Shown here: positions 4,758 through 26,273 of the stretch, one piece after another
Numbering within the stretch: position 1 is the first letter of the stretch
How the letters are laid out: the number at the start of each line of letters is the position of its first letter
Origin: Candidatus Paracaedimonas acanthamoebae
GTDB taxonomy: Bacteria; Pseudomonadota; Alphaproteobacteria; Caedimonadales; Caedimonadaceae
Direction of reading: 5' to 3'
Length of the DNA: 64,000 nucleotides
NCBI GenBank assembly: GCA_017307065.1
Contig: JAFKGL010000010.1
Span: forward strand, 73,500 to 137,499
The notes under the pieces: generated by a model
The model's input: the letters and a program-made list of their open reading frames with translations, nothing else
Database searches by the model: none
What the model was told of the DNA's origin: nothing
Made by a program: the position numbers and the translations under genes

Positions 4758-6002
4758 TTAGTCCAGCTGAAACTGAATAGGAAACCTTGTAATTCCTCTC
4801 AGGTGCTGTGTATTCTCGCTGGGTTGAAAGACACTTACGATTTCCCAATTCACAAAATCAGGTTTTGAAATTCCTATTATTCCTTCTAGATGAGGGACTG
4901 ATAATTTTATGGCTGGTACCATTGTAGAAGGTGGGAATCCCATTTCATTATTGCCAAGATTTATTTTTGACGTTAATCCAGCTAAGATAATTTCTTTATT
5001 TCGTTCATAAGGCTTACTAAATGAAATGAGAGGGACATAAGAATTAGTGGCGCATTTTTGGACAACTTGCTCACATGGGATAAGACAAGTTTGTCGCTCT
5101 GTGTAAAGAGAGATAATAGGGTATACAACGTCATATCCAGGTTTAGAAGAAATTATGGCTTCTTTCAAGGATTCAATATTTTGTTGAACCCACCAACAAA
5201 AAAGAGGCTCGGAATGATTATGATCAGCGTCTTGGATAAGCATATTAGGGCCTCTATCTATAAGGTCTTCAGGGGTTGTATCTGACACAAAAAGGTGCTT
5301 ATAACTTTCAAAATCAACTTGGTCGAGAGCTCTGAAATACTTTGTTTTAGTTTCATCAAAATCTGTTGATACATCTCTATTTACTATGGATTTTCTTTCA
5401 TCCTTTTTTTTACAGGAATGCGGGAAAAATCGAGGAAAGTATTTGCGATCAAAGGCAGCTTCTTTTTTCAACCATTTACCAAACTCTTCCTCCATTTCTT
5501 CCAAAAAAGTAGCATGATAAGGTTCTAAACTATATTCAATTTTTCCATCTTCTAGTTCATCTCCTATTCTTTCATATGGCCATGATAAGATTTGATAAGT
5601 ATCTAATTCCCTTCCTGACCATTGATAGGTCGAGGTATTCGAAAAAATTAATCTTTTTCCAGTTTTTCCTCTGAAAGGAGTGAAAGGAGTGATTATATAT
5701 TCGTCTGAGTCCGTTTTTCTCATCATCCATTGAATACCACCGGCACAAAAATTGATATTTCCTCGAAAGTTGAAATTTCGATCATGTCCTGGATTAAAAT
5801 AAGTTTTGTAATGATTTCCTGAAAAATTTGTATAACAGTCGTTAACAAGTCTTTGTAGAATTTGATGATTTCTCAGGATCTCATCTCCAGTTAACTCTGT
5901 AGAATAAACTTCAGCGTGTGGAGTAAAGACAGCAGAGATGATCAGGATAAGCTGTAAAAAATTCTTATATTGAGACCAGATTTTTAGTTTGTTTAAAAAC
6001 AT
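4758..6002 (-). CDS. Secreted protein of unknown function
   Basis: Unrecognised 414-residue protein. Its N-terminus has a positively charged start followed by a hydrophobic helix (LQLILIISAVFTPHAEVYS), which suggests a cleaved signal peptide. The body is rich in Trp, Tyr and Phe and carries about eight Cys (for example FCAGGIQWM, SCKKKDERK, FCWWVQQN, QTCLIPCEQVVQKC). That is consistent with a disulfide-bonded exported protein. AGAGG precedes the start. It is transcribed divergently from ccmC and is not linked to cytochrome maturation by any visible feature. Confidence 0.7.
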   Translation of the reverse strand: MFLNKLKIWSQYKNFLQLILIISAVFTPHAEVYSTELTGDEILRNHQILQRLVNDCYTNFSGNHYKTYFNPGHDRNFNFRGNINFCAGGIQWMMRKTDSDEYIITPFTPFRGKTGKRLIFSNTSTYQWSGRELDTYQILSWPYERIGDELEDGKIEYSLEPYHATFLEEMEEEFGKWLKKEAAFDRKYFPRFFPHSCKKKDERKSIVNRDVSTDFDETKTKYFRALDQVDFESYKHLFVSDTTPEDLIDRGPNMLIQDADHNHSEPLFCWWVQQNIESLKEAIISSKPGYDVVYPIISLYTERQTCLIPCEQVVQKCATNSYVPLISFSKPYERNKEIILAGLTSKINLGNNEMGFPPSTMVPAIKLSVPHLEGIIGISKPDFVNWEIVSVFQPSENTQHLRGITRFPIQFQLD

Positions 6003-6175
6003 AGAGACCTCTGTATTAGGGACAAGGAATGTCGTTATTTTCTAAGACACAACCATAATACACGAAATAAGAATTTTTTCAAAAATTAATCAAAAGATGT
6101 CTAAAGAAATCCCATCTTTTTATTTCTCATTAGCTTGAAAATCTTCTACACTCAGACCACTAAATAGGAGATCTT

Positions 6176-6907
6176 ATGCGCATTATTGCGAGTCCGAAAC
6201 AATTTTTAACTTTTAAGAAAAGGGTTCTCCCTTTTTGTATTGTAAGCCATATTCTCTTTTTAAGTTTGGGGTTATGGTTTGCATTTTTTGGGTCTCCACC
6301 TGATTACCAAATGGGGGATGCTGTACGTATGATGTACATTCATGTGCCAGCATCCTGGTTTGCCATGGGAGTGTATGCATTCATGGCCTTAAATGCGATG
6401 ATAGGGTGGATTACAAAACATCCTTTAGCAGATATCGTTGTGAAGGCAGCAGCTCCGATTGGAGCCCTTTTTACTTTTATCAGTCTAACGACAGGGGCTT
6501 TATGGGGAAAGCCCATGTGGGGTACATGGTGGGTGTGGGATGCGCGTTTAACCTCTGTCCTCATTCTTTTTTTGCTTTATTTAGGCTACTTGGCTTTGGT
6601 TGATAGTTTTGAAAATCAGGCTCAAGGGCTTAAAGCTGGAAGTATACTCGTCATCGTTGGAGCATTTAATTTGCCGATTATAAAATGGTCTGTAAATTGG
6701 TGGAACACGCTTCATCAGCCTGCAAGCCTAACGAAGCTTTCTTCTCCCTCTATTCATTCTGAGATGCTCATTCCTCTTTTTTTGATGGCTGGTGCTTACG
6801 CAAGTTATTTTATCGTAATGCTTTTGCTAAAAATTGAAACAGAGTATTTGAAACGGCGAGAACAAAACCTTTATGCCTTTAAAGTACAGGCTCTAAAATC
6901 GAATTGA
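6176..6907 (+). CDS. ccmC: Haem exporter/handling membrane protein CcmC
   Basis: CcmC loads haem onto CcmE for System I cytochrome c maturation at the periplasmic face of the inner membrane. The 243-residue product has six hydrophobic helices and the family's tryptophan-rich motif WGTWWVWDARLTS (residues near 112-124). The conserved His pair sits in loops: MYIHVPASW upstream and NTLHQPASL downstream. Length matches the family. It heads ccmC-ccmD-ccmE-ccmF. The ccmA and ccmB transporter genes usually beside it are not in this window. Confidence 0.95.
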   Translation: MRIIASPKQFLTFKKRVLPFCIVSHILFLSLGLWFAFFGSPPDYQMGDAVRMMYIHVPASWFAMGVYAFMALNAMIGWITKHPLADIVVKAAAPIGALFTFISLTTGALWGKPMWGTWWVWDARLTSVLILFLLYLGYLALVDSFENQAQGLKAGSILVIVGAFNLPIIKWSVNWWNTLHQPASLTKLSSPSIHSEMLIPLFLMAGAYASYFIVMLLLKIETEYLKRREQNLYAFKVQALKSN

Positions 6908-6921
6908 GAAAGAAAAAAAAG

Positions 6922-7074
6922 ATGGATACTTCTTATCTTTATTATATCGCAAGTGCGTATGCTATAACTCTTATCAGTTGTCTTGTTTTTTTTGTTTTCA
7001 CTTATCTGAAAGTTCAAGCTGCTCATAAAAGGATAAAACGACTTGAACAGACCTTAAAGCATCATGATATCTAA
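6922..7074 (+). CDS. ccmD: Haem exporter small subunit CcmD
   Basis: A 50-codon gene between ccmC and ccmE, easily missed. It starts MDTSYLYYIASAYAITL, has one transmembrane helix (about residues 10-28), then a basic amphipathic tail (AAHKRIKRLEQTLKHH). This is the usual CcmD build: a short Tyr-rich start, a single helix and a charged cytoplasmic tail. CcmD releases holo-CcmE from CcmABC. It starts 14 bases after the ccmC stop, with a purine-rich tract (GAGAAAG) 11 bases upstream of its ATG. It overlaps the first 11 bases of ccmE in another frame, suggesting translational coupling. Confidence 0.88.
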   Translation: MDTSYLYYIASAYAITLISCLVFFVFTYLKVQAAHKRIKRLEQTLKHHDI

Positions 7075-18232: not shown

Positions 18233-19243
18233 TTAAGATTTTCTATGGTTTCTTTTTACCAGAAGAGAGCGCTCTATTTTTGAAATAGAATTATTTGTAT
18301 TTTTATGGATTGTTTGAGCCTTTTTTAAAGGAGATGTTTTAGAAGGTTCTTTTTTTGACTCTTTAATTAAAGGAAATTTTGTGAATAAGGATTGAAGCCT
18401 TGTGATGAAAACTCCTAATAAAATAATACCTCCTGAAGTTATTTGAGAAAATGTAAGCTCTTCACCGAATAGTAAAGCAGATAGTAAACAAGTGAAGACA
18501 GGAAGGAGTAGCATAAAAGGGGTTTGTTTAAGGGATGAAACACGTTGTGCAAGACTTAGCCAAAGGTATCCTGCCCAAACTGTTGAAACCAATCCCACAT
18601 ATATAGAACATAAAATGCCAATTGAAGAAAGATGAGCGAAATTATAGATAGCTTCTTGGGGGCCTTCGAGAATAAATGGAATGACCATCAATGAAGGAAT
18701 CGAAATGACTGAGAGCCATACATTGTCAGCCATTTTAGCGCCCATTTTAAATTTTTTGAGAAGGGTGAATCCAATACCCCAGCAGATGGCTGACACTAAG
18801 ATAGATACAATCCCCAGAAAAGGCATATCTGAGGTGTCGCTATACCTTGCTTGGGTTAAGAGATAGGTTCCTAAAAAAGCAACCGCCATCCCCGCAAGTT
18901 CAATAAGTGAGACTTTTTCCTGAAGAATCAAGAAGCAGAAGAGAACCCCAAAGAGAATATTTGTTTGCATTAAGAAGGAGGATAATCCTGGACCCACTCC
19001 AGCTTTAAGGCCAAAACCAATGAATAACCAATTAAGAGCATTCCAAAACAGGCCCGCTAAAAAATATCTAGAAATTGGATTGGTCGGCTTAGAATATAAG
19101 AAGAGTAAAGGAACGACAGAAACGAGGCGTAGAAAGCTTAAAATGTAAATTGAAATATGATCCAAGGCAATTTTTTGCACAATTAAACTTGTGGCCCATA
19201 AAAAGGGGACAAAAACCCCTATAAATGTGTCTTTAAGACTCAT
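18233..19243 (-). CDS. EamA-family drug/metabolite transporter (DMT permease)
   Basis: 336 residues with ten hydrophobic helices and the twofold EamA repeat. The first half opens DTFIGVFVPFLWATSLIVQK and ends AVAFLGTYLLT, and the second half opens ILVSAICWGIGFTLLKK and ends GGIILLGVFITRL. A basic hydrophilic tail of about 50 residues follows (PLIKESKKEPSKTSPLKK), longer than usual. Substrate unknown: the family exports amino acids, nucleotides or other metabolites. Single gene, divergent from the small RNA unit. Confidence 0.88.
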   Translation of the reverse strand: MSLKDTFIGVFVPFLWATSLIVQKIALDHISIYILSFLRLVSVVPLLFLYSKPTNPISRYFLAGLFWNALNWLFIGFGLKAGVGPGLSSFLMQTNILFGVLFCFLILQEKVSLIELAGMAVAFLGTYLLTQARYSDTSDMPFLGIVSILVSAICWGIGFTLLKKFKMGAKMADNVWLSVISIPSLMVIPFILEGPQEAIYNFAHLSSIGILCSIYVGLVSTVWAGYLWLSLAQRVSSLKQTPFMLLLPVFTCLLSALLFGEELTFSQITSGGIILLGVFITRLQSLFTKFPLIKESKKEPSKTSPLKKAQTIHKNTNNSISKIERSLLVKRNHRKS

Positions 19244-19467: not shown

Positions 19468-19495
19468 TTGCAATATTAAAAACTTATGATATTAT
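19468..19495 (+). promoter_or_regulatory. Sigma-70-type promoter of the small RNA unit
   Basis: -35 TTGCAA (19468-19473) and -10 TATTAT (19490-19495) are separated by 16 bases. A start near 19502 would give a transcript of about 183 bases to the terminator at 19684. Confidence 0.6.
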
Positions 19496-19564
19496 CGCTC
19501 TGTGTGCCGCATATTGTTGGCGCATGCATCAAATCTTTGTCGATTTAATGTTTAGGAGGAAGAC

Positions 19565-19633
19565 ATGTTAAAGAAAATTGATCAATCGAAGTTATTAATT
19601 TCTAAAAATTATCTTATTACAACAAATGTGTAA
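19565..19633 (+). CDS. 22-residue micro-ORF inside the small RNA unit
   Basis: ATG to TAA, 22 codons, beginning MLKKIDQSKLLISK and ending in TTNV. It has the strongest ribosome site in the neighbourhood, TAGGAGGAAGAC directly before the ATG. The peptide is basic and mildly amphipathic with no transmembrane segment and no amino-acid run typical of a biosynthetic leader (no Trp, His or Phe). Function unknown: it could be a regulatory uORF, a small peptide, or a ribosome-dependent switch for the surrounding helix. Confidence 0.5.
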   Translation: MLKKIDQSKLLISKNYLITTNV

Positions 19634-19657
19634 TAAAATAAATTTACATCGATAAAG

Positions 19658-19684
19658 GCCTGCTGCGTTAAAGCGGGCTTTTTT
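19658..19684 (+). terminator. Terminator of the small RNA unit
   Basis: GCCTGCT (19658-19664) pairs with AGCGGGC (19672-19678), with one T-G wobble, and is followed by six T's. Compact and GC-rich in an AT-rich surrounding. Confidence 0.85.
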
Positions 19685-24329: not shown

Positions 24330-24485
24330 TTACTTTGCAGCTTCTTCAGCAGCTGGTGCAGCAACTTCAGCTTCAGCAACTGGTGCAGCAACTTCAGCTT
24401 CAGCAGCTGGTGCAGCAACTTCAGCTTCAGCAGCGATAGCAGCTGTTGAGAAAGCCAAGAGAGCAGCTAAAAGAATCTTGTTCAT
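24330..24485 (-). CDS. Small secreted alanine-rich repeat peptide
   Basis: 51 codons. The ATG ends at 24485 and has GGAGTG 7 bases upstream. Residues 1-19 are a textbook signal peptide (MNKILLAALLAFSTAAIAA), so only about 32 residues are exported. They consist almost wholly of three copies of an eight-residue unit, AEAEVAAP with A/V variants, then AEEAAK. The mature peptide is acidic and contains only Ala, Glu, Val, Pro and a final Lys. A strong terminator follows, so it is a single-gene unit of about 200 bases. I know no family for it; similar low-complexity Ala/Glu peptides exist in other alphaproteobacteria, without an assigned role. Confidence 0.75.
   Translation of the reverse strand: MNKILLAALLAFSTAAIAAEAEVAAPAAEAEVAAPVAEAEVAAPAAEEAAK
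24333..24420 (-). repeat. 24-base tandem repeat within the alanine-rich gene
   Basis: About three near-identical 24-base units (reading AACTTCAGCTTCAGCA and a variable Gly-Thr like segment on the plus strand) encode the AEAEVAAP units. The near identity at DNA level suggests recent copy-number change by slippage. Confidence 0.65.
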
Positions 24486-24667
24486 GTTTTTCACTCCGTT
24501 AAATGTAACATAACACTTTGTCATGCAGCATGCATATTCTCCGAAAAATAATTGAAAATCAAGGACAATTTGTGGGAATTGGGGGGGTGTGATATTTGTG
24601 CAACTGCTGTGTGCTAACTTTTTGTATTTTATTGCTATTATTGTAGCAATATGGTGAATTTTAAAAA

Positions 24668-25918
24668 ATGAAAACCTTAAAAACAACGATATTAAAGCTC
24701 GATGATCGTGGCTACGGTATTGCGCAAAGTGAAAATAGAGAAACTCTAATCGTTCCTTATAGTTTGCCTGGCGAAAAGGTAGAGATTGAAAAAGTACAGG
24801 ATCGTTGGTGCGTTAAAAAAATCGAAGAAGTTAGTTCTGAGAGAATAGCTCCTCCTTGCCCTTACTATGAAACTTGTGGAGGCTGTGTTTTGCAGCATAT
24901 GTCCTCTTCTGCCTACGCTGATTATAAAATGAAACGTCTCTCTCAAGCCATGGAACGTCATGGCGTTCTAAGAAGTTCTATGGACCCTCTCGTAATTTTA
25001 GAGCCTCATTTACGAAGACGAGCTATTTTTCATGCATTGAAAACAGCCTCTGAGACCTTGATCGGGTACTATCAGGTGGGCTCTCATCATTTGGTAGATA
25101 TTGCTAATTGTCTTCTATTGCGGCCTGAAATTAATGATCTTGTCGTGCCTCTGAAACGACTTTTAGGAAATATTCTCAAGCCGAAAGAAAAAGCAGATAT
25201 TTTCTTAACTTTCACGAAAACAGGGATAGATTTTTTATTGAAAGTAAAAGGAAATGAACCTCTTGATCTATTGAGCATAGAAGCTTTAAAAACTTTTGCA
25301 TATGAACATAGTTTGGCTCGAATTTCTTTTGAAAATGACCAAGAAGGGTGGCCTATTATAGCCCTTAAGACTCCTCAAATTCAGTTTGGTTTCTCTATGG
25401 TTGAAGTCTCTGCAGATGGTTTTTTGCAAACAAGTACGGAAGCCGATCAGCTTTTGACATCCCTTGTGTTAGAAGGTCTTCCTGATGAGTCAGGAAAAGT
25501 GGCAGATCTTTTTTGTGGTCGAGGAACATTTACATTACCTTTGTCAGAGACACGAAAAGTAGATGCGTATGAAATGGATGGGAAAGCCTTAAAGGCTCTT
25601 ACTCAAGCGGTTAAAACCCAACAACTTCCCATCCAAACATATGCGCGAAATTTATTTTCAGATCCTTTGACGCCAGAACATCTTGATTCTTATCAAAGTG
25701 TTGTTTTGAATCCACCGCGTCAAGGAGCTGCTGCTCAAGCCAAAATGCTTGCTTTGAGCAAGGTTTCTCATGTCGTGATGATATCTTGTAATCCAGATAC
25801 TTTTGCGCGGGATGTCTCTTTTTTGCAAAAAGGAGGGTTTCGTTTGGAAAAACTAACCCCTGTTGACCAATTTCTATGGTCACCCCATGTTGAAATAGTT
25901 GCTCATTTAAGACGATGA
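24668..25918 (+). CDS. rlmD: RNA (uracil-C5)-methyltransferase, RlmD/TrmA family
   Basis: Methylates a uridine in rRNA, most likely U1939 of 23S rRNA. The 416-residue enzyme has a TRAM-like N-terminal domain, an iron-sulfur cysteine cluster (Cys64, Cys70, Cys73 in CPYYETCGGC), the SAM motif VADLFCGRGTFTLPL, VVLNPPRQGA and the catalytic nucleophile in MISCNPDTFARD. The Fe-S cysteines favour RlmD or RlmC over TrmA; the exact target base cannot be told from sequence alone. It is divergent from the alanine-rich peptide gene. Confidence 0.88.
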   Translation: MKTLKTTILKLDDRGYGIAQSENRETLIVPYSLPGEKVEIEKVQDRWCVKKIEEVSSERIAPPCPYYETCGGCVLQHMSSSAYADYKMKRLSQAMERHGVLRSSMDPLVILEPHLRRRAIFHALKTASETLIGYYQVGSHHLVDIANCLLLRPEINDLVVPLKRLLGNILKPKEKADIFLTFTKTGIDFLLKVKGNEPLDLLSIEALKTFAYEHSLARISFENDQEGWPIIALKTPQIQFGFSMVEVSADGFLQTSTEADQLLTSLVLEGLPDESGKVADLFCGRGTFTLPLSETRKVDAYEMDGKALKALTQAVKTQQLPIQTYARNLFSDPLTPEHLDSYQSVVLNPPRQGAAAQAKMLALSKVSHVVMISCNPDTFARDVSFLQKGGFRLEKLTPVDQFLWSPHVEIVAHLRR

Positions 25919-25985: not shown

Positions 25986-26273
25986 ATGACCACATTTGGC
26001 GGCGTTTCAGGCGCTCATTTAAAACAATTCATAGAAAGAGTTGAGCGTTTAGAAGAAGACAAAGCAAATCTTGCAAATGATATTCGCGAAGTTTTTGCTG
26101 AGGCAAAATCAAATGGCTTCGATACAAAGATCATGCGTCAAGTATTGAAAATTCGAAAAATGGACCATGACGAGCGTTCTGAGCAAGAAGAAATTTTGAC
26201 CCTTTATTTGCATGCTTTGGGAATGGTTCCCCATGATGACATCGTTGAAGAACCAAAAAGTGACAGTATTTAG
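25986..26273 (+). CDS. gapR: GapR nucleoid-associated protein (DUF2312)
   Basis: 95 residues, coiled coil plus helices. The family core VSGAHLKQFIERVERLEEDKANLANDIREVF, split over the first half, and the second half with MRQVLKIRKMD match DUF2312/GapR. GapR binds overtwisted AT-rich DNA ahead of forks and RNA polymerase and helps replication and cell-cycle progression in Caulobacter. CTAAGGAG precedes the start at 25986. It is a single gene with its own terminator, typical for this highly expressed protein. Confidence 0.92.
   Translation: MTTFGGVSGAHLKQFIERVERLEEDKANLANDIREVFAEAKSNGFDTKIMRQVLKIRKMDHDERSEQEEILTLYLHALGMVPHDDIVEEPKSDSI

Follow-up and report, generated by a model that had tools for sequence, protein, structure and literature searches.

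The transcription unit at positions 19468-19684 of the window (the whole stretch of 64,000 nucleotides analyzed here) likely encodes the precursor of a minimal RiPP as a gene on its own, unlinked to the enzyme gene; hydroxylation probably takes place in trans, and a neighboring transporter of the EamA type possibly exports the product. The unit is very probably not an RNA switch, as the original prediction had it, but a tiny gene lying unusually far from its presumed enzyme in the genome: it is carried by contig C10 of the window's genome (G000), and is not clustered with the HExxH enzyme, which is encoded on contig C12.

The unit is real, and consists of an extended -10 promoter, a 5' hairpin, a perfect Shine-Dalgarno sequence, a 22-codon ORF and a terminator, all on the plus strand. 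The promoter (TTGCAA, a 16-nt spacer and a TG-extended TATTAT, 19468-19495) is conserved in two congeners, Caedibacter sp. 38-128 and 37-49 (G001 and G002), with 79% identity; its support comes from this conservation, because promoter-like matches are no more common in the window than in shuffles. It is followed by a 5'-terminal hairpin (19502-19525, pairing 19502-19509 with 19518-19525) that probably protects the end of the mRNA. In the RNA-structure comparison, which comprises three sequences (the window and the two congeners), three of its eight pairs are changed on both sides while 100% of the cells are paired. A second small hairpin, 5' of the ribosome-binding site (19528-19544), has 95% of its cells paired and no double changes, and the congeners' versions are stronger than that of the window. 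The Shine-Dalgarno sequence (AGGAGG, 19554-19559) lies 5 nt from the ATG and is invariant in the congeners; the ORF spans 19565-19633, and a GC-rich intrinsic terminator (GCCTGC/GCGGGC followed by T6, 19658-19684) closes the unit, with 100% of the cells paired in the three sequences. The -35/-10 pair, the 5' hairpin, the strong Shine-Dalgarno, the 22-codon ORF and the GC-rich terminator had all been recognized in the original prediction, and the comparison with the congeners bears them out.

Both congeners keep the unit at the same place, between the gene for an EamA transporter and the PCu(A)C-dnaG genes. Identity reaches 80-90% in the stretch ahead of the ATG, 75-88% in the ORF and 70-83% in the terminator, and drops to 21-45% directly past the unit. 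This conservation supports an independent transcription unit of about 180 bases with a translated 22-codon ORF. Since the ORF and the terminator stand upstream of a gene, one could think of a leader-peptide attenuator controlling the PCu(A)C-dnaG genes, yet this is barely credible: the terminator ends the unit approximately 200 bases ahead of the next start, the peptide contains no residue run, and homologous peptides elsewhere precede an unrelated gene.

The peptides of the window and the two congeners (MLKKIDQSKLLISKNYLITTNV, MLKKIDQSKILTVKNYLITTNA and MLKKIDQSKVLTVKNYLITTNA) are encoded by exactly 22 codons in all three genomes. Codon differences between them are mostly synonymous (synonymous to non-synonymous 11:4 for G000-G001, 7:4 for G000-G002 and 6:1 for G001-G002), with a dN of about 0.10 versus a dS of 1.6 between G000 and G002, which points to selection on the peptide, in a small sample of 22 codons. 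This bears directly on the proposal that ribosomes passing over the ORF disrupt a long-range helix (19535-19544 with 19648-19657) beside the terminator and thereby switch the RNA. The helix does belong to the window's minimum-energy fold, and the unit's RNA folds better than shuffles in the window (z -3.03, 1/200) as well as in the congeners (z -3.17 and -3.08). However, it is found in neither congener's fold, eight of its ten pairs fail to form in one or both congeners, 67% of its cells are paired across the three sequences, and its covariation among them is no better than that of a slid control. The related genomes thus preserve the ORF with its 22 codons but not the helix enclosing it. With selection acting on the amino acids, and homologues elsewhere linked through peptide sequence and gene neighborhood, a ribosome-driven switch is highly improbable. 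The accompanying statement that the RNA fits no known family agrees with an Rfam search of the whole window, which gave no match at the gathering threshold. In a comparison with type I toxins, which combine a hydrophobic membrane peptide with an antisense RNA, the peptide appears polar by inspection and the sole promoter-like site on the minus strand falls outside the unit.

Homologues of the peptide lie next to an enzyme gene. A peptide search gave a weak match in G001 (contig C60, E 1.05), with its own Shine-Dalgarno and flanked by a LysR gene and by a gene matching TIGR04267, a model describing aKG-HExxH-type peptide beta-hydroxylases; such a match may arise by chance, and was kept for its position and later backed by two cases from outside the window's order (G117 and the MAG L066). 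Homologous peptides of 21-38 aa are found between LysR and TIGR04267 genes in five other genomes, i.e., in three other members of the order (G005, MKKNSLSNIFSNKNNLSTTVV; G007, MKKIDLTKLFSNKNALTTTGV; G009, MIKIDLKKVFSSKNKLLNTYV), in G117 (MKKINTKKILVIKNTHKTTVI) and in L066 (..TKPKLDASKILSCSNPLSTVII..). When the LysR-HExxH gaps were shuffled 2000 times, 4 shuffles were as similar to the Caedibacter peptide as the one observed in G005, and none in G007, G009, G117 or L066. In G005, G007 and G009 at most 30 bases separate the peptide gene from each of its flanking genes, LysR and HExxH, and the three share a strand, in an operon-like arrangement. Lys4 and Asn15 are invariant across the nine aligned family members, and NCBIfam holds no model matching any of the eight peptides scanned. 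All members of the order in which the peptide was found have HExxH; the enzyme is absent from G003, G004, G006 and G008, where a single-sequence search found no peptide, a weak test since the same search missed those of G005, G007 and G009. Searching the whole class with a peptide profile returned many weak matches; the best one beyond the known members (G268, E 2.5e-4) was set aside, being out of frame inside a 548-aa ORF. The earlier observation that no biosynthetic gene follows the unit holds locally, but in other genomes the gene immediately downstream of the homologous peptide codes for a RiPP hydroxylase.

The N-terminus of the peptide connects it to larger precursors. At HExxH loci in other Pseudomonadota, longer short ORFs directly upstream of HExxH share the N-terminal motif K[LI][DEN]xx[KR][LIM][LFY] (MTIKIEQQKLLGF.., MTIKLDETKLLGF.., MKKNVVKLDVSKLYGF.., MAQSKLDTGKLFGF.., MAIELNADRMLGL..). 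ORFs of L111 (..KINLDLGKMLGY..) and L114 (MKLDMSKLIVS.., behind which come a terminator-like hairpin, HExxH and an EamA-type gene) also fit this leader family. A profile of 12 columns was built from seven HExxH-adjacent leaders, none from the window's order and two of which (G117 and L066) had been noticed beforehand for their likeness to the window's peptide. It scores the window ORF at 18.2 bits, the first rank among the 1,283 short ORFs of the window and among its 67,107 six-frame 12-mers, where the next reaches 13.4 bits. As a regular expression, the motif occurs in 8 of 123 short ORFs upstream of HExxH versus 4 of ∼2,604 others (p 6e-9), a count that is supporting only, as the expression was picked after some of these ORFs had been seen. 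Two HExxH-linked ORFs contain repeated segments (L062, 4193-4486, PAGILDTT..QTGK; L069, 2503-2739, SLKEGKP.GP) and are probably multi-core precursors.

This wider family also weighs on the idea that the peptide acts unmodified, e.g., as a signal for the linked LysR or as a small protein partner of the HExxH enzyme. The peptide has just 21-22 aa, and in the 19-38-aa group all HExxH-linked peptide genes have a LysR gene next to them. Yet the leader motif recurs beside HExxH genes in larger precursors, several of them with repeated core-like segments, and the stretch read around these showed no LysR, so that we regard an unmodified peptide as unlikely.

The window's genome encodes a TIGR04267 protein at G000:C12:23852-24811 (62.4 bits versus a cut-off of 40), and the HExxH genes found beside the homologous peptides pass this cut-off too. 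Their family alignment matches ChlH (PDB 8s5f, E 4.6e-10), with the HExxH and R.D.RP..G..HA.FV regions aligned. In G000 and the congeners alike, the gene is accompanied by EamA and LysR genes and, downstream, by a conserved 68-aa ORF. This ORF of 67-68 aa (MFNHHKVTLTANEIAQALTRMNS..GSPI), conserved in three genomes (L058, L059 and L060) and with no match in NCBIfam or Pfam, is a possible second precursor; it could even be the real substrate of the enzyme in place of the 22-residue peptide. A 733-aa protein in L124 (G001:C44:44000-54000, 4797-6998) combines an HExxH domain above the TIGR04267 cut-off with a radical SAM-like CNLNCDYCYMY motif and is possibly ChlBH-like.

The HExxH operons of G000 and G002 contain no recognizable copy of the peptide (a 26-aa ORF in the G000 gap on C12 is unrelated, 845 of 2000 shuffles being as good), and the copy in the G001 operon looks truncated (MLKKIESPRVLADKNILLS), such that in this genus the functional precursor gene appears to be the stand-alone one. 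The same operons might be taken to mean that the window's gene is a relic, separated from its operon, whose peptide no longer receives the modification; the purifying selection on the stand-alone copy and the conservation of its promoter, hairpin and terminator make this very unlikely. The EamA/DMT-family gene divergent from the unit (18233-19243, minus strand) has its closest paralogue in the HExxH operon (57-59%), the next-best reaching only 27%, and the two are recent paralogues. EamA-type genes adjoin HExxH in L066 and L114 as well, that of L066 being only distantly similar to the window's.

We therefore favor a stand-alone precursor with a putative leader of approximately residues 1-11, containing KKIDQSKLL, the motif common to precursors directly upstream of aKG-HExxH genes in other Pseudomonadota, and a putative core of approximately residues 12-22 (..KNYLITTNV). 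By analogy with published aKG-HExxH enzymes, binding of the leader by the C12 enzyme would lead to hydroxylation of the core, with the invariant Asn15 as candidate site; the leader would then be removed, and the product may leave the cell through the EamA transporter encoded beside the unit, an export suggested only by the paralogy and by the EamA-type genes near HExxH in L066 and L114. The mRNA is probably strongly expressed, and the 5'-terminal hairpin, strong ribosome-binding site and monocistronic layout would fit a substrate that must outnumber its enzyme.

More tentatively, these genes might represent a class of RiPPs not described before, ultra-short (21-22 aa), hydroxylated and exported, in an order whose members have small genomes and are probably host-associated. 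In the window's genus, the precursor gene would then have left a LysR-HExxH operon for a strongly expressed unit of its own, next to a duplicated exporter. If so, the product could target the host or competitors, as a possible modified peptide of host-associated bacteria. A 22-residue substrate and one hydroxylase would form a complete, testable pair for a little-studied RiPP enzyme family, and the shared leader motif offers a handle to find more precursors. Orphan precursors can thus hide in stretches read as non-coding RNA.

Regarding the affiliation of these bacteria, GapR is an alphaproteobacterial protein, and its presence in the window (25986-26273, Pfam PF10073, a DNA-binding protein) suggests Alphaproteobacteria, though NCBI files the Caedibacter congeners under Gammaproteobacteria. 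The window also encodes a protein with a repeated AEAEVAAPA motif behind a likely signal peptide (24330-24686).

The papers found on Caedibacter and RiPPs have, judged by titles and the opening of abstracts, nothing on this peptide, and a search for orphan RiPP precursors modified in trans found no papers. Known RiPP systems with aKG-HExxH enzymes (TIGR04267/IPR026337) include ChlBH, BpmH and PflC/PosC, and these enzymes hydroxylate Asp, His, Gln and, in the case of PosC, Asn in RiPP precursors (PMC12636437). As in these systems, the short precursors of the relatives share a leader motif and adjoin an aKG-HExxH hydroxylase, and the Caedibacter-type enzymes match the TIGR04267 family and ChlH (8s5f). 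Unlike them, the window-type precursor has only 21-22 aa, has LysR and EamA as linked genes and shows no radical SAM, MNIO or other maturase beside it, and in this genus its gene forms a separate, unlinked unit with a promoter and terminator of its own. Precursors encoded at a distance from their enzyme may occur in RiPP families such as the prochlorosins. We propose that here, likewise, the precursor gene is served in trans by a remote enzyme, but with a single ultra-short precursor and a hydroxylase in place of a lanthionine synthetase.
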